DNA from: Candidatus Thorarchaeota archaeon
GTDB lineage: Archaea > Asgardarchaeota > Thorarchaeia > Thorarchaeales > Thorarchaeaceae
Length of the DNA: 64,000 nucleotides
Assembly: GCA_019057475.1 (NCBI GenBank)
Contig: DXJO01000041.1
Coordinates: 71,284 to 135,283 of the forward strand
Direction: 5' to 3'
Shown: positions 188-18,324 of the stretch, piece after piece
How the letters are laid out: each line of letters starts with the position of its first letter
How positions within the stretch are numbered: the stretch's first letter is position 1
Made by a program: the position numbers and the translations under genes
The notes under the pieces: model-generated
Seen by the model: the letters and a program-made list of their open reading frames with translations, nothing else
The model's database searches: none
Told to the model about the DNA's origin: nothing

Positions 188-1616
188 CTAGTTGATTTGC
201 TTCTCAATGTGATTTAGGAATTTAATCAGATTGTTGAGATTCTTTCTGATGTCTAGCAATGAATCCCTATCTGTGAAACTTCCCAAGTGATGAACATCAA
301 CGTTGAAATCATTCTTCAGTTTCTCCAAATCAGCCTTTAGCTTGTCTGTTTTCTTTCTATTTGTAGTGGGAGAAAATTTGATAATCTCGTCAGGGAATGC
401 TATCCAGAAATTGGTAAGAAGCTCACTAAAGGACTTCGATCTATATTCACCTCGTCGGTCTTTGTATAGGTAAAGGCCGGAATCGTTCTTCCCGAACTTT
501 CGCTGCAGTATCGATATCACAAGATTCTCTAGAAGTTTCCGTGATAGAAAAGCCGTGCAGACATAGCATCCAGCACTAAAGGCATTGTTAATCTCCTCTA
601 CGAGGTCGTACATCAATCCTCCAAAGTCAAGAGGGTTGATATAGAAGAATGTCTGTTTTCGGGATACTGACTCCTTTTCATAAGTGGATTCTTGCACTAA
701 TGTGTCAACAAACTTAATGTTCCCGAGAAAACGCTGAACCCATTTTGGCATTGGCCTGAAAGATGCATATTTAGCTGATGCCTGTAGCATCACATCGTTA
801 TCGATTGAAAGAAGTTGAAAGTTATCGCAATGAAATAAGGGAGTGATGTCTATCTCCTGAAGCTGGTTATGATTCAGTTTCAATTCTCTCATGAGTTTGC
901 AATTCGCTAAAGGCGACAGGTCTATCTTCCGAAGTCGATTGGATGAGAAATCTAGCTTCTCGAGTGAGTGTAATCCTGAAAGCGGTTCGAGTTCAATCGA
1001 TTCCAACTTATTTGCTGAACATGATAACGTTCTCAATGTTTTGATATGCCTTAATGGAACAAGGTCAATTATCTTAAGGGAATTGCGTCCAATATTTAGA
1101 TTCATCAATCTCCTAAGCTTCGAGAGAGGCTCTAAGTTGACTGTTTCTAATTGATTATTATAGAAATAAAGTGATTCTAGATGAGGTATGTTTCCAAGTG
1201 AGTTGAAATCTAAATCAGTCAGCATATTCTGAATCATATTTATGGTTTTCAGATTAGGATGACCTGCAAGTCCGGATAGATCAATTGCAGTGAGCTTATT
1301 CTCAGTGAGATCAAGCGATTCAAGCCGATCACATCCATTCAATGAATCCAACTTTGCATCCTTGATTCGATTAAATGAGATATTGAGATGTTCTAACCGT
1401 TTGCATTGTTCTATGCCGTGAAGATAGAGATATTCTAAATAATTGCCACCGAGGTCTATGCTTTTTTAAAAAGCGGAAATTCGAGAAATGATTAAATTCG
1501 ATTGCTGTGATTTTCATCCCCCTTAGAGATATGTATTCCGCACTCTCATCAAACTCTTTAGATTCCTGTTCACCTGAGCTTGTCCGGAAATATACTTTCC
1601 ACCTAATTACGATCAC
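188..1616 (-). CDS. Leucine-rich-repeat protein with helical C-terminal domain, frameshifted
   Basis: The N-terminal part contains about ten LRR units with a period near 23 residues and the recurring pattern LxxLxLxxNxLxxIDLxPL. The C-terminal 180 residues are helical and charged and faintly resemble DUF4145/HEPN-type domains (an RxLLE helix and a late VHH), which is not secure. The frame is broken at a run of six A on the coding strand (plus-strand bases 1462-1467). With five A the N-terminal 50 residues (GTG start at 1616) read straight into more LRR units. The downstream part alone is 188-1353. It starts 61 bases after the stop of the STAND gene on the same strand, so the two may be co-transcribed. 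A ligand-sensing or effector role is inference. Confidence 0.7.
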
Positions 1617-1677
1617 TCCCTATGTTCCCGTAGAATACACTCTATCAACCCTAGTTGTAACTCAGAGGTCATTTTTA

Positions 1678-4515
1678 TCATTTCAATTCCTTAAGAATCA
1701 AGTTGTCTATTCGTTTCTTGGATTCCAACTCAGAGAGCCCCCAGCATTCAATGTAAGTCAAATTCAAGAACTGGAGCGCTTTCATGACATCCCTACGGTG
1801 ATGTTCAGAAATCTTGGTCGCAGCTTCATGGAACATTTTGATGGCTTTAACGAAGTTTGCTTCCGCTTCTTTGCATTTGCTCAACCCATGATAGGTTTTT
1901 CCAAAATTTGCATATATCATGGCCATTTCAACAAGATGGGTTTCTCTTGAGTTTTCAAGTAGCTTCTTCCTAATCTCCATTGATTCAAGTAGGTATTTTC
2001 CTGCCGTCCCCCATCTCTCCAAACAGTGCAGTGCAATGGCGATATTATTCAAGTTCGCTGCAATTGCAGCTCCATAGGCATTTCCTTCCTCAGGAAGTGA
2101 TCGCCAAATATCTAGTGCTTCCAAGTGAAGCTCCAATGATTCTGAGCATTTTCCGATATCAGTGTAGAGAAACCCAAGAGCATTAAGTGCATTCGCAAGA
2201 TTCATTTCAAAGAAACTGGATACTTCTGCATCTAGTTCTCTATAGATGGCTATGCTCTCTCTCAAGCGTTCTTCGCTTTCGTGTAGAAGTTTTGGATTTC
2301 CTGAACTGATTCCTAATCTATGACAAGCGATTCCAAGTGCATTCAGAGTGTCAGCAACCGATGAGATATGAATATGAAACGGAAGCATTTCGTCAAGAGT
2401 TTTACGTATATCAAGAGTCTCTGTAAGCATGGAAATACTTGAATTGAGATTGCCAGAATCCTTTAGAAGTAGTCCAAGGTTGTGGAGAATCGTCCCTCTC
2501 AAAGAGAGATAGATTTCAGGGTACTTGTCTAGTTGCTGCTGAACAACATCTAAAGCTCTCCTAAAATGTAACTCTCCTTGTTTGTAGTTGCGTAGTCCAT
2601 AATAGGATAAACCTAGACTGTTATGGACTCCAACCAAATTATAGAAGAACTCTTCTTCTTTTCTGGCTGAAAGGTTTTCAAAAAGATTCAATGATTCATT
2701 CAAGGATTTCAGAGACTCGGAGAATCGACCTAGTCGACGATAGAGATTTCCTAGATTGTTCAGGTTTCCAGCTTTACCTTCCTGAGAAATGTCGGGATGT
2801 GAGTCAATGAATTGGTTGTTGATTGCCAATGCATCTTTCAAGTATGTTTCTGCATCTGTAAGTTGCCCTTTACTTCGGCATAACAATGCGTAATTGTTCA
2901 GCACGCCTGCCACATGCAACAATCTTTCATCTTTTGGTTCAATTGGTTCAGTTTTATATCTGCTAATAGCTTCCACAAATTGCACACTGGCGTCACCCAG
3001 AACACCAATGTCCAAATAGGATTGACCTAGCATTCCCTTCTGAATTGATTTGAACCAATCTGATCGAAATTCAACAGATTCGAGCAGTTCAGATATTTCT
3101 TCATACTTGTGCCGCATTCGAAAACTTCGCAGGATTGGTCGAAGCTCTTGCATCGCATGGTTTTCCGAGTATAATGCTGCAGAAGAAACAGCTAGTGACA
3201 GAAAAGATAGGTTTCCACTCTCTTTGTAGTGTTTCATAAGAATTGAACTTGCTTCTAGGATGATTTCAGGCGTGTCTTCATTGACCATCCTGATGGCAAG
3301 CTCGCGTGCAATCTCATGCATTCTGAAGTATGGCTCTTCAAAAGTAATGACACTCAATCTAATGAAATCCCTCCAAATCTGCGGGTCTAGAGATGGGCAA
3401 ATTAGCCGAGCTATATTTCTGTCAAAATGCGGAATTAGGGCTAATCTACTAGCGATTGGAGATAAATGTCGAAGTCCGTCAAAGAGAAGCTTCCATGATC
3501 TCTCATATACTTCTGATATGGTATGTTGTTCAAAATCGGTCAACTCTGAAATGACTAAAGCATCTCTCTCAAAGGCATCACAGAAAGCATGAATTACAAA
3601 CGGTGACTCGTGACTTGATAGTATGATGATATTTCGTATCTCTTTAGGTATTCCTCTTTTTTCAAGAATTTTGTTGCAGCTTTTGCGATCAAGTTGTTGT
3701 ATTTCTTTGTCCTGCCTTGATACCCCCAGCACTTGAGGTGGAAGGGGTAGCGTTCTTGCTGCAAGTACTCCTAGACTTCCCTTTACCTTGGTCAGAAATA
3801 AATGCCACAGTTCACCTTCACTTAAACTGACCACTTCATTTCCAACTTTAGAAGGAAAACGCATGAAATCATCCAAATGATCAATGGAGTCCAACATGAT
3901 TAGGAATGGTAGGTCCTTCTCCGTTACGGCATTATTCAAATCTTGGGCTAAACCATCAAGAAAAAGTTGAATAGCGAACCCTGGGTTTACTCTAAGAAGC
4001 TCTAGGAATCGTCGACCATAATCCTTGCCAAGTTGTTCCTTCAACCAAACGCCCACTTCTCCAAAATGCATGTCTACAAGTTTATGCAGTTTCTTTCCGG
4101 TAGTAGACATGGCTACTGCGATTTTGGCAATCTGGCTTAAAGGGGGAATCCAATCCACTAAGTCTTTGATCCATCGCTTGCTTTCAGGCCTATGAGGTTC
4201 AATTCCCTTGACTAATCGAGTTCTAAGATCCAGCAGTCGATTGGATATGCTTGTCTTAATCCCCTTAGCATTGATTTCTCTGACTAGTGCCCTGTATCTT
4301 GAGTAGAAATCTCCATGGTCTCTGAAATTAACTAGAAATGAGTATTCATGCCTATGTACCAATGCCTTGAGAATGGCACTCTTTCCAATTCCTCCAATTC
4401 CGAAGATACCAACCATCGCGGTTTCTCCATCCTTGCAGGCATTCATAGTATCCAATATCCATTCAATCGTGTCCGTTCTACCCACAAAGAAAGTATCCTT
4501 TTCTAGTTGGGACAT
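1678..4515 (-). CDS. STAND-type NTPase with C-terminal TPR repeats
   Basis: A 945-residue protein with a P-loop GIGGIGKSA (residues 40-48) just after a short VGR motif, as in STAND/NB-ARC-like ATPases. A Walker B-like stretch ending LIMLDSIDHLDD lies near residue 210, followed by a helical winged-helix-like region. The last 450 residues are tandem tetratricopeptide repeats with recurring NNLG, LGLSY and ALNALG signatures, like kinesin-light-chain TPRs. No membrane segment or signal peptide is visible, so it should be cytosolic. In this family NTP binding drives oligomerisation after the repeat domain recognises a ligand. Relatives act in signalling, transcription control or antiviral defence, and which applies here is unknown. 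The LRR gene follows on the same strand. Confidence 0.85.
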   Translation of the reverse strand: MSQLEKDTFFVGRTDTIEWILDTMNACKDGETAMVGIFGIGGIGKSAILKALVHRHEYSFLVNFRDHGDFYSRYRALVREINAKGIKTSISNRLLDLRTRLVKGIEPHRPESKRWIKDLVDWIPPLSQIAKIAVAMSTTGKKLHKLVDMHFGEVGVWLKEQLGKDYGRRFLELLRVNPGFAIQLFLDGLAQDLNNAVTEKDLPFLIMLDSIDHLDDFMRFPSKVGNEVVSLSEGELWHLFLTKVKGSLGVLAARTLPLPPQVLGVSRQDKEIQQLDRKSCNKILEKRGIPKEIRNIIILSSHESPFVIHAFCDAFERDALVISELTDFEQHTISEVYERSWKLLFDGLRHLSPIASRLALIPHFDRNIARLICPSLDPQIWRDFIRLSVITFEEPYFRMHEIARELAIRMVNEDTPEIILEASSILMKHYKESGNLSFLSLAVSSAALYSENHAMQELRPILRSFRMRHKYEEISELLESVEFRSDWFKSIQKGMLGQSYLDIGVLGDASVQFVEAISRYKTEPIEPKDERLLHVAGVLNNYALLCRSKGQLTDAETYLKDALAINNQFIDSHPDISQEGKAGNLNNLGNLYRRLGRFSESLKSLNESLNLFENLSARKEEEFFYNLVGVHNSLGLSYYGLRNYKQGELHFRRALDVVQQQLDKYPEIYLSLRGTILHNLGLLLKDSGNLNSSISMLTETLDIRKTLDEMLPFHIHISSVADTLNALGIACHRLGISSGNPKLLHESEERLRESIAIYRELDAEVSSFFEMNLANALNALGFLYTDIGKCSESLELHLEALDIWRSLPEEGNAYGAAIAANLNNIAIALHCLERWGTAGKYLLESMEIRKKLLENSRETHLVEMAMIYANFGKTYHGLSKCKEAEANFVKAIKMFHEAATKISEHHRRDVMKALQFLNLTYIECWGLSELESKKRIDNLILKELK

Positions 4516-5947: not shown

Positions 5948-5960
5948 TCATTGTCCTTGG

Positions 5961-6001
5961 CATGGAAGAGGTCCCGAGTTCGAATCTCGCTCGGTCCACC
6001 A
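5961..6001 (+). repeat. tRNA 3'-end fragment, copy 1 of 7
   Basis: Contains a T-arm (CGAG TTCGAAT CTCG), an acceptor half CTCGGTCC and ACCA, but no matching 5' half upstream. The preceding CTTGGCATGGAAGAGG resembles an anticodon-loop and variable-region remnant; CTTGGCA would carry a Pro-type TGG. Copy 2 shares the ATGGAAGAGGT. The following roughly 50 bases are repeated after copy 3. Confidence 0.6.
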
Positions 6002-6055
6002 ATCATCTTCATAGTTGTTTCGGGTTTCATCCACGATTCCTAACATGAAGCCGGG
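6002..6055 (+). repeat. Conserved tail after tRNA fragment copy 1
   Basis: The sequence ATCATCTTCATAGTTGTT, then TTTCATCCACGATTCC and CATGAAGCCG, aligns with 7688-7748 behind copy 3, apart from a short indel. The duplicated unit therefore extended past the tRNA end. Confidence 0.55.
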
Positions 6056-6082
6056 CTATTGCTAGCACTCTTTTATAGTACA

Positions 6083-6973
6083 ATGGGATCAATAGATTGT
6101 GAATCAAATCATATCCAGACAATAAGGGGGCGGCTTCTAATAACGAGTCAACGCGAAAATGATTGGGGAAAAATCGTTGCTAATAAACAGGTCCAGACGT
6201 GGTTGAAGAATGATGAGGAGCATGTACTTCCAATCATGATTAAGGATTTCAGGGGCCTTTCACTTGGACCGGCCAAACTTATTCCTACCTATGACACCAA
6301 AGAGATCCCTAAAGCGCTCAAATCAATAGATGTAGAATTACTACGCAACCAAAAGGGTGGCTGCTTGTTAATCAAGAGGAAAGCTGTTGGCTCGCAGACA
6401 TTGTTTCCAAAGCTTCCCACTCCCACGAAATCACATTCCGGACTCCCCTTCCAGTCAATCCCTGAATTATCTGTACTGAGAAAACCAAAATCCCGACTTG
6501 TAAATGAAGAAACAGGAATACACTTAGCTTGGACCATGGGCATCCTTCAATCTTTTTTCATGGAGGTTTTCTCTCCGTACGAGCAATTTGCAGTTGGGGG
6601 AAGATTGAAGACGCGTGTTAAGGGGAAGTTCATGATATTGGGTCAAGATTATCCCGTTGACGCTCTTGTCGAAGCTGATGGATACTTTGAATCTCGGGAT
6701 AGAATAATCGTATTGGAGGCAAAACAATCAGACAACAATCAATTTTGTGCAGACTTTAGCATCCATCAACTCCTACTACCTCTCATGTTGGTAAGAGGAA
6801 TCACTAAGAAGATGAGTAGTGGGATGTTCTTAGACTATTCAATTAGCAGAAGTGATGGACGAGCAACAGTAAACTACAGGATTTACCACTATGATATCCC
6901 TGGAAGCGATTCATCGATTGATCCGTTTAGTTACAGAGCAGGCTCGTCAAAGGAATATTTGATAACCATTTAG
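6083..6973 (+). CDS. Putative PD-(D/E)XK restriction-like endonuclease
   Basis: Roughly 296 residues. In the C-terminal half, VDALVEADGYF followed after seven residues by IIVLEAKQ has the layout of a PD-(D/E)XK nuclease core (acidic residue, then E-A-K on the next strand), and a QLLLPLML helix follows. The N-terminal half is unassigned and could recognise DNA. It resembles solitary type II-like enzymes, yet no DNA methyltransferase of matching type is adjacent. An in-frame TTG lies at 6059; I prefer the ATG at 6083, just after the TATA-like CTTTTATAG. It occupies the interval between fragment copies 1 and 2. The nuclease role rests on one motif. Confidence 0.5.
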   Translation: MGSIDCESNHIQTIRGRLLITSQRENDWGKIVANKQVQTWLKNDEEHVLPIMIKDFRGLSLGPAKLIPTYDTKEIPKALKSIDVELLRNQKGGCLLIKRKAVGSQTLFPKLPTPTKSHSGLPFQSIPELSVLRKPKSRLVNEETGIHLAWTMGILQSFFMEVFSPYEQFAVGGRLKTRVKGKFMILGQDYPVDALVEADGYFESRDRIIVLEAKQSDNNQFCADFSIHQLLLPLMLVRGITKKMSSGMFLDYSISRSDGRATVNYRIYHYDIPGSDSSIDPFSYRAGSSKEYLITI

Positions 6974-7020
6974 CCTCTTTGGATAACTTAGCACTTGTGA
7001 CGCACTCTGCGTGCATCCAA

Positions 7021-7061
7021 AATGGAAGAGGTTGCGAGCTCGAATCTCGGGTGGTCCACCA
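7021..7061 (+). repeat. tRNA 3'-end fragment, copy 2 of 7
   Basis: ATGGAAGAGGTTGCGAG, then CTCGAAT in place of the T-loop, CTCG, and GTGGTCC ACCA. It shares ATGGAAGAGGT with copy 1 and lies 47 bases after the stop of the nuclease-like gene. No tRNA 5' half is found upstream. Confidence 0.6.
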
Positions 7062-7157
7062 CCTTCTTCTATTTCTAAAGGAAACTGGACGGTTCAAGTT
7101 TCCAAGCACCTCGTCATTCTTATGGGAACTAATCCATACATGTAGTGGTACTGAATC

Positions 7158-7640
7158 ATGCTCTTCGTCACAGTTGCAGGTCTACTCTCATGGTTTATTC
7201 CAAGAAGAAGAGTGCAGTGGAAATGGTCTCTTGTAGCCTTTCTCCTAGTGACTTTGACAGTTTCATTATGGGTCATAGATGATGTCCGAGCAGCCGGTGT
7301 GGTACGTGATGTCACTCGTTCAGAAGGAGACCTTGTCTACTCCATTGTATATCTCAACAGCACTGCATTGTTCCCGTTTGTACTGCAGAAGCATCACAAT
7401 TGGACCGCAAGGTCATTCGTATACTATATTCGGTTCTTGAACCATGATGGTAGCCTAGTTTCTCAGACAAGGCCAGGCCCCGATCAGAGTGAGTTTATGC
7501 ATATGGCTTTGTTTGCAATATCGATTTCCCTCTGCTTTCAAGGATTCATAATAGCTCTGCTTGCAATTCTAGGGGCGGAATTCATCACATGGTGGCGAAA
7601 ACCGAACAGAATGGATATTCTGCGTAGTATTACAGAGTAA
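7158..7640 (+). CDS. Small membrane protein
   Basis: A 160-residue protein with N-terminal hydrophobic segments (LFVTVAGLLSWFI and SLVAFLLVTLTVSLWVI), an exposed central loop and a C-terminal membrane segment (FAISISLCFQGFIIALLAIL) before a basic tail. This gives an integral membrane protein of three passes with an extracytoplasmic loop. No family recognised. It lies between fragment copies 2 and 3, whose sequence starts within about ten bases of its stop. Confidence 0.55.
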   Translation: MLFVTVAGLLSWFIPRRRVQWKWSLVAFLLVTLTVSLWVIDDVRAAGVVRDVTRSEGDLVYSIVYLNSTALFPFVLQKHHNWTARSFVYYIRFLNHDGSLVSQTRPGPDQSEFMHMALFAISISLCFQGFIIALLAILGAEFITWWRKPNRMDILRSITE

Positions 7641-7647
7641 CTCTCTT

Positions 7648-7687
7648 ATCTTCCAGTTGGCGAGTTCGAATCTCGCCCGGCCCACCA
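7648..7687 (+). repeat. tRNA 3'-end fragment, copy 3 of 7
   Basis: The best-preserved copy: a full T-arm GCGAG TTCGAAT CTCGC, acceptor half CCGGCCC, discriminator A and CCA. A complete tRNA would start GGGCCGG, but none is present upstream. It begins about 8 bases after the stop at 7640. Confidence 0.65.
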
Positions 7688-7748
7688 ATCGTTTTCGTAG
7701 TCGTTCCTTTCAACGAATTTCATCCACGACTCCGCTCATGAAGTCGAG
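7688..7748 (+). repeat. Conserved tail after tRNA fragment copy 3
   Basis: Aligns with the tail after copy 1 (ATCGTTTTCGTAGTCGTT, TTTCATCCACGACTCC, CATGAAGTCG) with a 7-9 base indel. It overlaps the 3' end of the minus-strand gene that ends at 7720. Confidence 0.55.
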
Positions 7749-8184
7749 TTCGAATTCTGTCAAGCAACAGGCGTATGTCTATTCGGTAGGGCGAGAAGAG
7801 ATAAAGCAGTCCTAGAGCAACCCAGACAATCCAGATTCCACAATGTATGAACATTATGTAGAATACCTGGTCAATAAGATATCCATGTGAAAGCGCCTGA
7901 TACCCCCCGGACGGAGCTGGAATGGGAAGGAATCTCCCGGGAGGGAGGCTTGACCACATCAACCCCTCTTCGAGGCTCCACCACCAACCACCAATAAACC
8001 AAGCGGATATCAAAATCCAAATGTAGTAGACCAAAATGAGAGCAACCATGACGCGGCGTATCCGGGCAGCCCTGTCCACATGACGCCTCACTAGCAGGTT
8101 TTGATTCCGGAACTCCACATTCAGAGTATTCGATTCACTCATCGATATCTCACAATTCCAGAGCAATGATACTCTACGAGTCAA
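7720..8184 (-). CDS. Small membrane protein
   Basis: A 154-residue protein: hydrophilic N-terminus, a basic stretch, a membrane segment (VMVALILVYYIWILISAWFI), a Pro/Gly-rich loop and a second membrane segment (FIMFIHCGIWIVWVALGLLYLF), then a basic Arg-rich tail. Two-pass topology with both ends inside is likely. No family recognised. It is the only minus-strand gene in the cassette region, and its last codons use the duplicated tail of fragment copy 3, so its C-terminus may have been acquired there. Confidence 0.5.
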   Translation of the reverse strand: MTRRVSLLWNCEISMSESNTLNVEFRNQNLLVRRHVDRAARIRRVMVALILVYYIWILISAWFIGGWWWSLEEGLMWSSLPPGRFLPIPAPSGGYQALSHGYLIDQVFYIMFIHCGIWIVWVALGLLYLFSPYRIDIRLLLDRIRTRLHERSRG

Positions 8185-8235
8185 TTGCCCAGCTTTGGCA
8201 ATAATCTTCCTATTTCAGTAATTGATTCCAGTAGA

Positions 8236-8269
8236 CGACTGTATGCACCGAATCTCGGCGGGTCCATCA
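8236..8269 (+). repeat. tRNA 3'-end fragment, copy 4 of 7 (degenerate)
   Basis: CACCGAATCTCGGCGGGTCCATCA keeps the T-loop end, the 3' T-strand and the acceptor half, with ATCA in place of ACCA. It is the most decayed copy and is recognised mainly by context. Confidence 0.45.
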
Positions 8270-8309
8270 CACTTTTCAAATCTTGGACATCTGCATGTCT
8301 TGAAAAGCC

Positions 8310-8912
8310 ATGAAACACAAACTGCTTCTCGAATTGCCAGAAATCCTAGAAACAGATGCACTGGTCATTAGGAAATACAGGAGAGAAGATGGAAAGCAAT
8401 ACAATGATCTGTTTGAGAGGAATAACAATCGAGATTTGTTGAAAGAACACGTTGATGAGGCTACAGAAATCACTACAACGGAGAAAGCTGAGATCAGGAT
8501 AAGAGAACATGCTGCAGAATGGGAAGCACGAACAAGGTTTGTGATGGGCGTATGGTTGAAGAAAGAAGAACTGTATATTGGCCAGATTTGGATTGAGCCC
8601 AAGAATTGGGAAGTACCGTCATTCGAACTCGGCTATTTCTTGGATGACGGATATCAGGGACATGGCATTGCATTTGTAGCAGCTAAACGTTCTCTAAGGT
8701 TCCTCTTCGATGAACTTCACGCTCACAAAGTGATGATTCTGACACGTGACACAAACGAAAAGAGCTGGAAACTAGCTGAACGACTTGGTTTTGTGAGGGA
8801 AGGTCATCTAAGGGAATGCGGCGTTGGGAGTGGCAAACGTTGGGGTCAGTATCATTATGGAATGCTTGTAGGAGAGTACAGGACAAAGCAAAAGGGTACT
8901 TCACAGGGATAG
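8310..8912 (+). CDS. GNAT N-acetyltransferase, RimJ/RimL-like
   Basis: A 200-residue protein with the RimJ-type layout: an N-terminal strand (ETDALVIRKYRREDG), a central IGQIWIEPKNWEVPSFELGYFL, then DDGYQGHGIAFVA for the acetyl-CoA pyrophosphate-binding loop. The late HKVMILTRDTNEKSWKLAERLGF is the classic N-x-x-S-x-x-x-x-E-x-x-G-F motif. Such enzymes acetylate protein N-termini, antibiotics or small amines; the substrate cannot be read here. It lies between fragment copies 4 and 5 and starts at an ATG. Confidence 0.85.
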   Translation: MKHKLLLELPEILETDALVIRKYRREDGKQYNDLFERNNNRDLLKEHVDEATEITTTEKAEIRIREHAAEWEARTRFVMGVWLKKEELYIGQIWIEPKNWEVPSFELGYFLDDGYQGHGIAFVAAKRSLRFLFDELHAHKVMILTRDTNEKSWKLAERLGFVREGHLRECGVGSGKRWGQYHYGMLVGEYRTKQKGTSQG

Positions 8913-9059
8913 CATGATTCAATCTCAAAGGAATCTGATGCTGGCCATCTTATCGCTGATTCCAATCATGTATTCATTCTAAGGGTCGCTAAATTGAAAT
9001 CGCAAAGTTGTGAAAAACACTATAAGTTTTCATGAGCATTAAGAGATTGAGGAGTTTCT

Positions 9060-9377
9060 TTGCAGCTTGAGATTGTCCCTGAAACCGTTCTCATAAGCGT
9101 CTTTGTGGGGACATGCCTTCTCTTCACACTATACCTGATATTGAAGACATGTTCTGAAAGAAATTTGGTAAGACCTGAACGAAGGGGAGGAACACCGAGG
9201 GTTGACGACTTGACCGCAACACAGAGTGCATATGGGCATGAGGTTTCGTATTCCTCTAGCATCCGTGGGTGTGGATCTTCAGCAGGTCCTTTTCCAATTG
9301 GTGGAAGAACAGAAAGACTTCCCACAAGGTCGTTTGGAAGCTACACTAAACCGAGAAGGAAATCAAAGAAAAGCTGA
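9060..9377 (+). CDS. Small single-pass membrane protein
   Basis: A 105-residue frame with TTG start: one N-terminal membrane segment (ETVLISVFVGTCLLFTLYLIL), then a polar Ser/Arg/Gly-rich tail ending in basic residues. A TATA-like CACTATAAG lies about 45 bases upstream. No family recognised. Fragment copy 5 begins about ten bases after its stop. Confidence 0.35.
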   Translation: MQLEIVPETVLISVFVGTCLLFTLYLILKTCSERNLVRPERRGGTPRVDDLTATQSAYGHEVSYSSSIRGCGSSAGPFPIGGRTERLPTRSFGSYTKPRRKSKKS

Positions 9378-9386
9378 CTTGTGACT

Positions 9387-9428
9387 TGAGGAAATCCTGG
9401 TGCGAATCGAATCTCGCCCGGTCCAGCA
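9387..9428 (+). repeat. tRNA 3'-end fragment, copy 5 of 7
   Basis: GGTGCGAATCGAATCTCGCCCGGTCCAGCA: T-loop region ATCGAAT, 3' T-strand CTCGC, acceptor half CCGGTCC and AGCA in place of ACCA. It lies 10 bases after the stop at 9377. Confidence 0.55.
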
Positions 9429-9455
9429 CTCACTCCTAGGAATTATTGATTTTTC

Positions 9456-9596
9456 TCACGGTTTCTTTACATAAATGGTTGCTATAATGAGAACAACCGC
9501 GACACCAGCTCCAACAACTAGAAACATTGTTTGCGAAGGGGGGATTGTGGAGGTTATGGGGGTTGTGGTTTCTGTTGTACTAGTTGTGTATGGCCA
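9456..9596 (-). pseudogene. Remnant of a surface protein: Thr-rich stalk plus C-terminal membrane anchor
   Basis: The minus strand reads WPYTTSTTETTTPITST, then a hydrophobic span FLVVGAGVAVVLIIATIYV, then KKP and a stop. This is the usual end of an archaeal exported protein, with a Thr/Ser linker, one anchor helix and a basic tip. A stop codon directly upstream (9597-9599) removes the rest, and no matching ectodomain is visible upstream. It is probably the 3' end of a lost gene. Confidence 0.45.
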
Positions 9597-9779
9597 TTAT
9601 GCATATCTAGTTCTTGCCGCATTCATGACAATATTCCACATCTGATGATGACACTAGTAGTATCCTCGGTTCTAACTTTGGGAGTAATCGGAATAGTATT
9701 ACTAGGAAGATGGTTTCAGAGGGATGGGGCGACTTCTTGATGGATTATGATAAATAGAAGCAACGCCGAAAGGAATTCT

Positions 9780-10553
9780 ATGAACGAGACTTTGAAGACA
9801 ATTGATGATCGGAAATCGTTGAGAGGATATGATTCAAGAGAGATTTCTTCAGAACACAAGAAGTGGATTCTCCACAGTGCTTTTCGAGCTCCTACCGCGG
9901 GGAATATGATGCTTTATTCCATCATTGAAGTAGCAGATCAAAAGATGAAGGATAAACTAGTCAAGACATGTGACAACCAACCCTTCATAGCCAAAGCCCC
10001 CCTTGTGTTATTGTTCCTTTCAGACATGCAGAGATGGTACGACCTCTTCGAATATTCCAGTGTACCAGACCTATGCAAGGAGCGAAGCATCGAATATGTC
10101 ACCCCAAAAGAATCAGACTTGCTGCTCGCTTCCTGTGATGCACTGATAGCGGCACAAAATGCTGTGATTGCTGCTGAGTCTTTGGGCATAGGTTCGTGCT
10201 ACATTGGCGACATAATGGAGAACATAGAGATTCACAGAGAGATGTTTAATCTACCTAAGTGGGTCTTTCCAATAGCGCTTCTATGCTTCGGCTATCCCCG
10301 ACGGGATGACCGGGATGACCGTGAGAAGACACCCCGATTCCCTGAACACTTGGTGTATTTCAAGAACAAATACATCCGAACAGATGGTAAAGAATTCGAG
10401 TCAACACTCATGGCTCAAACCAGGGATAAGGAAGCCATCTTCAAAAAGGCCAAGAACATTGGGCAGTTCATCTATTTACGGAAGACCGGTGCAGACTTTA
10501 CTACCGAGATGCGTCGTTCAGTCAAGGTCGCAATTACCGACTGGATTGAATGA
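9780..10553 (+). CDS. Nitroreductase-family flavoprotein
   Basis: The start of the frame gives RKSLRGYDSREISSEHKKWIL, then AFRAPTAGNMMLYSII, the FMN-binding N-terminal signature of the nitroreductase fold. ALIAAQNAVIAAESLGIGSCYIG in the middle and PIALLCFGYP near residue 180 are further family landmarks. The family uses FMN and NAD(P)H to reduce nitro compounds, quinones or enones. The last 70 residues beyond the GYP motif are a less typical extension. I prefer the ATG at 9780, preceded by GAAAGG; an ATG at 9747 is in frame. Confidence 0.85.
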   Translation: MNETLKTIDDRKSLRGYDSREISSEHKKWILHSAFRAPTAGNMMLYSIIEVADQKMKDKLVKTCDNQPFIAKAPLVLLFLSDMQRWYDLFEYSSVPDLCKERSIEYVTPKESDLLLASCDALIAAQNAVIAAESLGIGSCYIGDIMENIEIHREMFNLPKWVFPIALLCFGYPRRDDRDDREKTPRFPEHLVYFKNKYIRTDGKEFESTLMAQTRDKEAIFKKAKNIGQFIYLRKTGADFTTEMRRSVKVAITDWIE

Positions 10554-10610
10554 ATCAAGAATCGGTGCTAGACTGCGGATTACCAAATCGATGTGAAGAG
10601 GTCGCCAGTT

Positions 10611-11441
10611 ATGAATTCAGTTGCTCTGGTGAAGTGCAAAAGCAGCGTCGGCAAAGCCCTACAAGAGGGCCTTGAGCATATTGGTGGTTTCGGGGTTCTA
10701 GATTCTCCAGTTCTCATCAAACCAAATATCTGCACAATATCAGACGATACAGGATACTCTGTTACTCAGGTAGAGGTTGTCAAAGCTTTAGTCGAGCTGT
10801 TATTGCAAACTGATGAGGACCTATCCATCAAGATTGTTGAGTCTGACAGCCAGAGTAAGTTTGCAGAAGAAGCCTTTGAGAAGTTCGGATACAAACGACT
10901 CTGTGATGATATGAAGGACTCAGGATTCGATGTAAGGACTGTTGACCTCAGTAAGGACCCCTTGATGGAGCTCCAGTTCGTTGGGGATTACTTCGAGAAT
11001 CCTGAACTGCCAGAAACAGTCCTCAATGCAGGATATTTCATCTCAGTTGCAGTCCCTAAGACACACTATCTTTCCTTTATCACGGGGGCTTTGAAGAATC
11101 TCTTTGGAATCCTTCCAAGAAAAGACCAAGCGTACTATCATTCAAAGATAGATGAAGTGATTGTGGATTTAGCTAGAATCATCAGACCGAACCTATGCAT
11201 TATTGACGCAAGAATAGGCGTTGAGGGATGGAATGGTCCTAAAACAAGAAGGCTTGATGCATACATCGTGGGACACGGAGCAGTATCAGTAGATGCAACA
11301 ATGGCACGAATCATGGGTTTCGAGCCTGAACAGATTCGTCACATCATGGATTCGCATGATTATGATCTGGGTACGATTGATCCCACTGTTCTTGGTGAAT
11401 CTATCGAGTCGATCGCAGTCAATTTCAAACCTCCGAGATAG
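10611..11441 (+). CDS. DUF362 family protein
   Basis: Starts SVALVKC, then SPVLIKPNICTI, TQVEVVKALVELLL, and later FISVAVPKTHYLSFITGALKNLFGILP and IIDARIGVEGWNGP. This series of motifs is typical of DUF362 proteins, which are often found near iron-sulfur proteins and sometimes carry a C-terminal ferredoxin domain. None is visible here and the cysteines are scattered, so this is the short form. The ATG at 10611 has AGAGG at a good distance; an in-frame ATG at 10593 is possible. The function of the family is not settled. Confidence 0.75.
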   Translation: MNSVALVKCKSSVGKALQEGLEHIGGFGVLDSPVLIKPNICTISDDTGYSVTQVEVVKALVELLLQTDEDLSIKIVESDSQSKFAEEAFEKFGYKRLCDDMKDSGFDVRTVDLSKDPLMELQFVGDYFENPELPETVLNAGYFISVAVPKTHYLSFITGALKNLFGILPRKDQAYYHSKIDEVIVDLARIIRPNLCIIDARIGVEGWNGPKTRRLDAYIVGHGAVSVDATMARIMGFEPEQIRHIMDSHDYDLGTIDPTVLGESIESIAVNFKPPR

Positions 11442-11475
11442 AGAGAAATTATGTTTCTGATGCATATCCACATAA

Positions 11476-11509
11476 TTATGGTCGAGGCCAAATCTCACTC
11501 GGTCCACCA
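11476..11509 (+). repeat. tRNA 3'-end fragment, copy 6 of 7
   Basis: GTCGAGGCCAAATCTCACTCGGTCCACCA: an altered T-loop (GCCAAAT) between GAG and CTC, an acceptor half CTCGGTCC like copy 1, and ACCA. It lies 35 bases after the DUF362 stop. Confidence 0.5.
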
Positions 11510-11665
11510 GTTTCATTATGAAGCATTCAGAGAGAGATTGAACGGAACAATGGGATTAAGGGAAATTGGTCAAGACTCCCATTCTTCGAATGTGTGAGAA
11601 GATTCTTATCAAAGCTCGGCAAATCCTAACAGTCTGTGAATAATCGCAGACGGAGTTAGGAAAAG

Positions 11666-11917
11666 ATGAAATTCCTCATAGAATGGCATACTAAGCCAAA
11701 ACATAGAGAGAAGTTGAATAATCTAATCGAAAAGTGGAAGCCTCCAGACGAATTTAAATTCTTGATTCCGCCTTATCACGTGGTGGGTGGTCATCGAGGC
11801 ATGGCTGTAATTGAAGTCGATGATGTGGAAATCCTCCAGAAGGGTCTAGGATTCTTCATGGATTTCGCGGATTTCGTGGTCACACCGATCCGTCCTTTGC
11901 TTCCTGTTCCTAAGTAG
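11666..11917 (+). CDS. DUF3303-like small alpha/beta protein
   Basis: An 83-residue protein starting MKFLIEWHTKPKHREK and ending in DFADFVVTPIRPLLP, with a central GGHRGMAVIEVDD strand. The size and pattern fit a dimeric ferredoxin-like ABM/DUF3303 fold with a conserved WHxKP-type start. The ATG is preceded by AGGAAAAG. The function is unknown. It is the sole gene between fragment copies 6 and 7. Confidence 0.6.
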   Translation: MKFLIEWHTKPKHREKLNNLIEKWKPPDEFKFLIPPYHVVGGHRGMAVIEVDDVEILQKGLGFFMDFADFVVTPIRPLLPVPK

Positions 11918-11988
11918 TCCAGTTATCTATCAACTTGTGCATTGGAACTCTTTCAGTGAGTACGATACCCCATTCAATAAGAGAAAGA

Positions 11989-12024
11989 AAGAGCCTATCG
12001 ATTCGAATCTCACCCGGGCCACCA
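11989..12024 (+). repeat. tRNA 3'-end fragment, copy 7 of 7
   Basis: ATCGATTCGAATCTCACCCGGGCCACCA: T-loop TTCGAAT, 3' T-strand CTCAC, acceptor half CCGGGCC-like, ACCA. No complementary tRNA 5' half lies upstream. It is the last recognisable copy; none follows the next genes. Confidence 0.6.
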
Positions 12025-12099: not shown

Positions 12100-12669
12100 T
12101 TGCAGAATACCTCAACCTTTGAAGCCCCGATGCAGAGGATTCGGCTAGACCGACTGCCTCAGGGAGAGCCCATTCTGGATGTAGGAGCCGGGGGAGAGGG
12201 ATTGGTGTCAAGAATCGAAGGCGCAAGAGTATGCGCTATTGACATCCGGATGGATGAGATAAGGGAAGCGCGCATTCATGACCCACCTTCCAATTGGTTT
12301 GTTGGTGATGGTAGGGCTCTTTGTTTTCGCGACTCCAGCTTTCAGGTAGCCACACTCTGGTTCTCGCTTGGATACATGAGAGATTGGGAAACCAAGCACC
12401 AAGTCATGAAAGAGGTGCAGAGAGTCCTGAAGCCGGATGGGGTTGTATCAATCATGGCCAGCAAGATAGTATGCAAGGAGGACAGATTCTTATTCAGAGT
12501 AGTGTATACTCTCCCTGATGGGACCATTTCCCAAACAGGCTACGGAGTCAGAGGGAAACAGGATCAGACGCTTGAGAGTGCTAGTCGATTGCTGGAGGAT
12601 ATGGGCTTCAGACTAGAGCGTACTCAGGAGCATGAACACTGGTTCGAGATTCTAGCCGTAAAGCAATAG
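12100..12669 (+). CDS. Class I SAM-dependent methyltransferase
   Basis: A 189-residue protein with the SAM-binding glycine motif ILDVGAGGEGLV, an acidic ARVCAIDIR end of strand 2, FVGDGRALCFRDSSF as motif III and MKEVQRVLKPDGVVSIMAS as the post-motif region. The substrate is unknown. The TTG start at 12100 has GGAG about eight bases upstream; an ATG at 12130 is possible. Confidence 0.85.
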   Translation: MQNTSTFEAPMQRIRLDRLPQGEPILDVGAGGEGLVSRIEGARVCAIDIRMDEIREARIHDPPSNWFVGDGRALCFRDSSFQVATLWFSLGYMRDWETKHQVMKEVQRVLKPDGVVSIMASKIVCKEDRFLFRVVYTLPDGTISQTGYGVRGKQDQTLESASRLLEDMGFRLERTQEHEHWFEILAVKQ

Positions 12670-18315: not shown

Positions 18316-18324
18316 CCACTATTC

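Follow-up and report, generated by a model that had tools for sequence, protein, structure and literature searches.

How do seven 3′ ends of transfer RNA (tRNA) genes, alternating with small genes, come to lie within a few kilobases of archaeal DNA? The question is raised by a window of 64,000 nucleotides from Candidatus Thorarchaeota archaeon (assembly GCA_019057475.1, contig DXJO01000041.1; in our numbering G000:C21:71284-135283, where G000 is the 3.34 Mb genome of 56 contigs holding the window). Judged from sequence, the region is very probably an array of gene cassettes built on tRNA-Ala 3′ ends, with site-specific exchange at their common core. The cassettes are short, mostly one-gene units, each ending in a tRNA-Ala core of about 22 bp followed by a pyrimidine tract; the arrays begin directly 3′ of an intact tRNA-Ala gene, at a locus which is empty in some relatives; and whole cassettes turn up beside differing neighbours, the change from one unit to the next falling inside the core. 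No other known archaea are as closely related to eukaryotes as the Asgard group, which is said to have acquired many foreign genes by a route that is poorly known. The locus presents a concrete and readable route of gene uptake, a fixed docking site at which single genes are added or swapped, each with a recognisable joint, and it can be used for cataloguing the mobile genes of Thorarchaeota, candidate defence systems among them.

All seven plus-strand fragments reported by a first-pass annotation of the window are present, with ends at 6001, 7061, 7687, 8269, 9428, 11509 and 12024. Their parent is tRNA-Ala, of which they are the 3′ ends (T-loop to CCA):

5954..6001, plus strand: fragment 1, tRNA-Ala(GGC) 3′ half from the anticodon loop (TCCTTGGCA) to CCA, long type
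6983..7061, plus strand: fragment 2, tRNA-Ala 3′ half with intron sequence still present, 85% identity over 80 nt with G000:C9:2681-2760
7660..7687, plus strand: fragment 3, T-arm to CCA
8246..8269, plus strand: fragment 4, T-loop to TCA
9405..9428, plus strand: fragment 5, T-loop to GCA
11482..11509, plus strand: fragment 6
12001..12024, plus strand: fragment 7, the last joint, with the conserved flank beginning to its right

The 22-nt core (up to 3 mismatches) matches the window seven times, where 100 shuffles give an expectation of 0.00; the matches are six of the reported fragments and, at 18318, the end of an ordinary tRNA. Copy 4 differs too much from the core to be matched in this way, but is recovered by a profile. 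The annotation had seen a T-arm remnant and an (A)CCA end in every copy, which holds for part of them: a good 5′ strand of the T-arm is kept by copies 1-3 only and in part by copy 6, copies 4, 5 and 7 begin inside the T-loop, and copies 4 and 5 end in TCA and GCA instead of CCA. The spacing of the fragments behind plus-strand stops and the position of the sole minus-strand gene (7720..8184) before copy 4 were described correctly. An intact matching tRNA had been missed for the reason that none lies in the window; tRNA-Ala(GGC), with an apparent D-loop intron, is found at C21:65074-65181, 6.1 kb before the window start and 12 kb upstream of fragment 1, on the strand of all seven fragments. Elsewhere in G000 there are three more fragments on C9 and a weak one on C22. 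Those on C9 form a second small array (G000:C9:1790-2760) near the contig end, with its head unassembled and its orientation opposite to the tRNA-Ala(CGC) of the same contig. A further candidate, at G000:C18:119498, was discarded, since reading by eye showed a complete tRNA of Pro type whose D-loop holds an intron.

A profile built from ten G000 fragments was run on arrays fetched from contigs of metagenome-assembled genomes (MAGs), and the resulting 83 fragments and 72 cassettes (<6 kb) in 23 genomes are lower bounds, because decayed joints are missed (one "cassette" of G005 is in fact three). The median cassette length is 1002 bp, and 52 of the 72 hold one open reading frame (ORF; at least 70 aa). 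ORFs of at least 100 aa number 86, 50 of them sense and 36 antisense to the fragment. In the short type of fragment the identity with tRNA-Ala has an abrupt start at -22/-21, a position within the T-loop, and extends as far as CCA, the core consensus being TTCGAATCTCGCCCGGTCCACCA; positions +1 to +9 behind the CCA are pyrimidine-rich, with G at no more than 4%. A smaller number of fragments, copies 1 and 2 of the window among them, reach further back and start at the anticodon loop; some of these contain intron sequence. The five T-stem pairs are intact in 21 of the 83 fragments, and a tRNA 5′ half is found in none, as the annotation had stated for its seven. With regard to the idea that older joints are more decayed, scores fall with distance from the tRNA in G000 and do not in G005. 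Multiple copies of the core are nearly confined to the Thorarchaeota family of the window in a sample of 158 Asgard genomes, where arrays on other tRNAs would be missed because the pattern is specific to one tRNA-Ala sequence.

The same locus was compared in Candidatus Thorarchaeota MAGs (e.g. G005:C140, JAUWOA010000001.1, and G060:C124, MEHG01000124.1). Conserved in the family are a left flank with genes of 636, 133, 171, 86 and 122 aa followed by tRNA-Ala(GGC), and a right flank with a methyltransferase, a 174-aa protein and a peroxiredoxin; the variable array occupies the interval between the tRNA and the right flank. A clean empty site without array (left core, tRNA-Ala, methyltransferase) is found in G018, G020 and B65_G9, and the tRNA-to-methyltransferase gap of empty sites is about 100-150 bp. 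In G005, 13 fragments are spread over 34 kb behind the tRNA, and a tRNA followed by cassettes is seen also in G060, G059, G001, G063, G066 and others. The TGC and CGC tRNA-Ala genes are trailed by arrays too, although shorter ones, and at the CGC gene a cassette is inserted in G065 and none in G000. One clade carries the tRNA and array inverted relative to the flanks; as the cassettes remain 3′ of the tRNA there, the array follows the tRNA and not the flanks.

The tRNA-Ala head itself seems to hold, besides anticodon-loop introns, an extra T-arm intron exactly at the integration point (G010:C86:7923-8060, G034:C38:13663-13800, G068:C206 and G061:C38), and apparent D-loop introns are present in the heads of G000, G001, G030 and G060. 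Randau and Soll, as cited in PMC3293823, had the idea that introns could shield a tRNA from integration, and the introns of tRNA-Ala could protect it in this way.

Content at the locus varies among relatives by the presence or absence of cassettes between fragments, with breakpoints in the core. Cassette 4 of the window has cassette 3 as its left neighbour in G000 and in G001:C235, cassette 7 (DUF3303) in G005 and another unit in G001:C219; the neighbours of cassette 5 also vary among G000, G001 and G005. For both the switch point is within the core, the left cassette reaching up to the T-loop and the right one taking over from about CGGYCCACCA. Cassette 3 is 89% identical between G000 and G001 over 624/629 nt and lies directly behind the tRNA head in G001; G060:C182 and G066:C201 share a cassette from end to end (85% over 763/764 nt); and a cassette of 543-565 nt for a membrane protein of ~150 aa is present in seven genomes with different neighbours. 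Joints are in part like the local tRNA allele, with CACGC or CCCAC in G066 and G063 as examples, and to their left the sequence follows the cassette; in G066 the T-stem strand of the joint is that of the lineage's tRNA alleles and what lies to its left is the cassette's. One G005 fragment and the 112 nt that follow it match the present tRNA end of G000 and the sequence downstream of that end at 93% identity, which is the expectation if former tRNA ends have been displaced to become fragments. Among the readings proposed by the annotation, that of a gene-cassette array on tRNA attachment sites is therefore the one borne out by gain, loss and reordering with breakpoints inside fragments and by the existence of empty sites. 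The pattern is, as far as assembled sequence can tell, that of precise cassette exchange and neither decay of larger elements nor an RNA signal.

Of the cassette genes, that for the ~150-aa membrane protein, which lacks a match in Pfam, is the most widespread, with occurrences in the arrays of G001, G005, G029, G059, G060, G062, G066 and G027, that of G027 encoding a similar protein. The genes of the array in the window are as follows:

1678..4515, minus strand: STAND-like/TPR protein, 945 aa (PADLOC TPR model, 6.7e-10; P-loop "GIGGIGKS" read directly in the sequence)
6059..6973, plus strand: cassette 2 gene, 304 aa, DUF6997 (Pfam 1.1e-8)
7158..7640, plus strand: cassette 3 gene, 160 aa, membrane-like
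7720..8184, minus strand: cassette 4 gene, 154 aa, membrane-like, antisense
8310..8912, plus strand: GNAT acetyltransferase, 200 aa (Pfam 2e-19)
9060..9377, plus strand: cassette 5 gene, 105 aa; the homologous unit in G001 and G005 begins near 8978
9747..10553, plus strand: nitroreductase family protein, 268 aa (Pfam 1e-17)
10593..11441, plus strand: DUF362 protein, 282 aa (Pfam 2.7e-35)
11666..11917, plus strand: cassette 7 gene, 83 aa, DUF3303 (Pfam 2.3e-11)
12100..12669, plus strand: methyltransferase, 189 aa, of the conserved right flank; adjoins tRNA-Ala in empty-site genomes

The STAND-like/TPR gene belongs to the first segment, a long one that separates the tRNA-Ala head from fragment 1, and a leucine-rich-repeat-like protein is encoded there with it on the minus strand (window 188-4515). 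Directly behind the tRNA head, in both G000 (G000:C21:65188-70455) and G005 (G005:C140), is a gene pair for a 902-aa protein with no Pfam match and an 852-aa HerA/VirB4-like ATPase, possibly a two-gene defence system. In the arrays examined with Pfam and PADLOC many cargo genes are defence-like by homology, with a resemblance to antivirus genes. The window gave Pfam matches to DUF6997, GNAT, nitroreductase, DUF362 and DUF3303; the cargo of G005 includes a HEPN AbiV protein, two Schlafen AlbA_2 proteins, an HNH protein, a cytidine deaminase, a beta-lactamase fold and a HerA-like ATPase, a NucS-like/PD-(D/E)XK nuclease matching a PADLOC candidate family, a PLD/Nudix protein (DrmC-like) and a UvrD helicase (GajB-like). 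These homologies are hints of a defence role, and the array may be viewed as a store of exchangeable accessory genes, many of them defence-like.

As to how such an array would be built, a free and probably circular cassette would recombine with the tRNA-Ala gene in its T-loop and bring along a tRNA 3′ end and a terminator tract, which would restore the tRNA. The old 3′ end would be displaced downstream and form the joint that closes off the incoming cassette; the same core would serve for excision and exchange. The 7-bp tRNA loop between stems resembles the core of tyrosine recombinases (PMC8371274), and we give roughly even chances to an enzyme of this type, specific for the T-loop end of tRNA-Ala and acting in trans from transient mobile elements; no such enzyme was found in the family genomes searched. 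The agent may be a trans-acting integrase of passing elements, an unrecognised recombinase or plain repeat recombination. Only tentatively may one think of a dedicated, integron-like gene-capture system of Thorarchaeota that arose independently of integrons, with essential tRNA-Ala genes for entry sites and a T-loop recombinase of unrecognised type that would move single genes, mainly for defence, as cassettes.

Several observations weigh against site-specific exchange in arrays headed by tRNA-Ala. No recombinase is linked to any array in the family genomes searched, which agrees with the annotation having seen no integrase. A PF00589 tyrosine recombinase was found in 18 of the 47 family genomes and not in the other 29; the array-bearing G001, G059, G060 and G025 have none detected, and none of the array contigs of the 47 has a match. 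Fragments of tRNA-Ala occur in 0 of 32 integrase neighbourhoods (L139-L170). Excision or a circular form was not observed, the cassettes being known here from assembled contigs alone. The layout is odd in G010, G034 and G068, with fragments behind a re-inverted tRNA, and the single-contig genome G027 (CP070658.1) has a headless array (G027:C1:1758159-1762218). This last array has five fragments and single-gene cassettes, no tRNA 5′ half upstream, and adjoins translation genes. In the same 47 genomes PF00239 was detected in 14 and PF16795 in none, the 13 parsed tRNA ends of G000 had no convincing match in the integrase neighbourhoods, and the array proteins tested with Pfam include no integrase or remnant; all these absences are weak, because nearly all the genomes are MAGs. 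The only resolvase on an array contig is of the serine type (G035:C161:1061-2632), beside a ~300-aa ORF and just upstream of tRNA-Ala, and the two look like an IS607-type element. In viral contigs the exact 23-mer core had no match, and the seven matches of a degenerate core pattern proved on reading to be unrelated phage tRNA genes or tRNA-like stretches. The plasmid search matched scattered bacterial replicons and one Pyrococcus integrase.

The missing recombinase, undetected even in several array-bearing genomes, would be accounted for if no dedicated enzyme took part and homologous recombination at the short tRNA repeats shuffled and deleted segments brought in by occasional integrations, and a junction anywhere in the shared core would look equally precise. 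However, the core is only 22-28 bp long and imperfect, cassettes alike in size and ends are met with in different genera, and new single-gene units behind the tRNA with a sharp start of identity in the T-loop are the product of tRNA-targeting integrases, so we regard this explanation as improbable. Such integrases also enter into the repeated insertion and loss of elements suggested by the annotation, in which plasmids or viruses integrate serially at tRNA-Ala and are deleted to about one gene each. Integration of this kind leaves exactly such tRNA 3′ fragments, archaeal elements do integrate in tandem (PMC8371274), and first segments of 10-12 kb occur in G000 and G005. Decay predicts genome-specific remnants, yet cassettes are conserved over their full length and differ in order between genomes, the predominance of one-ORF cassettes (52/72) is against it, and so is the lack of integrase remnants among the Pfam-tested array proteins; as single-gene cassettes with conserved ends in new neighbourhoods are left unexplained, we consider it very improbable.

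That the tRNA-like 3′ ends act in RNA, as signals for transcript-end processing or protection or as products of tRNA-primed reverse transcription, is suggested by several fragments lying shortly after stop codons and being followed by a T-rich tract. The form of this idea put forward by the annotation, a mark for RNase Z or a protection of transcripts, is disfavoured because 36 of the 86 ORFs are antisense and most fragments are without the partner strands of the tRNA fold (all five T-stem pairs in just 21 of 83, the 5′ half in none). DNA breakpoints coincide with fragments as well, and a role in RNA has next to no probability.

Precise exchange of cassettes at a tRNA-Ala core has its closest described kind in the additive tRNA islands of some bacteria. 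These have the tRNA gene as target, 3′-end repeats between or behind cassettes, a fixed position and variable content, and the Thorarchaeota locus has the same, with empty sites and addition and loss of cassettes. According to PMC10872708 the islands of 'Ca. Methylopumilus' have 20-bp repeats of tRNA-Lys, sizes between 330 bp and 42 kb and a content of 1-63 genes; others are known from 'Ca. Actinomarinales' (PMC7771536) and Alteromonas (fGI1, PMC4119200), and the excerpts on Methylopumilus and Actinomarinales report no recombinase. The Thorarchaeota locus differs from these bacterial islands in its Asgard archaeal host, in units that usually hold one gene and measure ~1 kb, in arrays reaching 13 joints, and in the reordering of whole cassettes seen between genomes. 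The array is thus an archaeal, single-gene form, and apparently new: the open-licence literature searched yielded no account of arrays like these in archaea, and an earlier description may exist elsewhere. Tycheposons also place cargo beside a tRNA gene, but according to PMC10872708 they measure 4-200 kb and are recognised by an XerD-type tyrosine recombinase, while the units described here are ~1 kb and have none. Plasmids and viruses integrating in tRNA genes (SSV, pNOB8 and pT26-2 types; PMC8371274) target the 3′ part, restore the tRNA and leave a fragment at the far end; they differ in carrying their own integrase, which is absent from the Pfam-tested array proteins (PF16795 in 0/47 genomes), and many genes.

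Integrons and CALINs share with the array the short, mostly one-gene cassettes (here 52/72 with one ORF, median 1002 bp), a recombination site at each end, one entry site, an order differing between genomes and an integrase which may be absent from the array. Integrons with attC do occur in Asgard MAGs (PMC9668308). Here, however, the joint is a tRNA-Ala 3′ end and not an attC hairpin, and the entry site is a functional tRNA gene. The core lacks the GTTRRRY box of the GTTRRRY/RYYYAAC pair which, with a single-strand hairpin, marks attC, and the T-stem is incomplete in most fragments; no IntI was found on the array contigs, and in place of a strong orientation bias there are 50 sense and 36 antisense ORFs. 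The array works like an integron but, with no attC and no linked integrase, is not one. The locus suggests that ordinary integration at tRNA genes can give rise to integron-like storage of cassettes with no need of attC.

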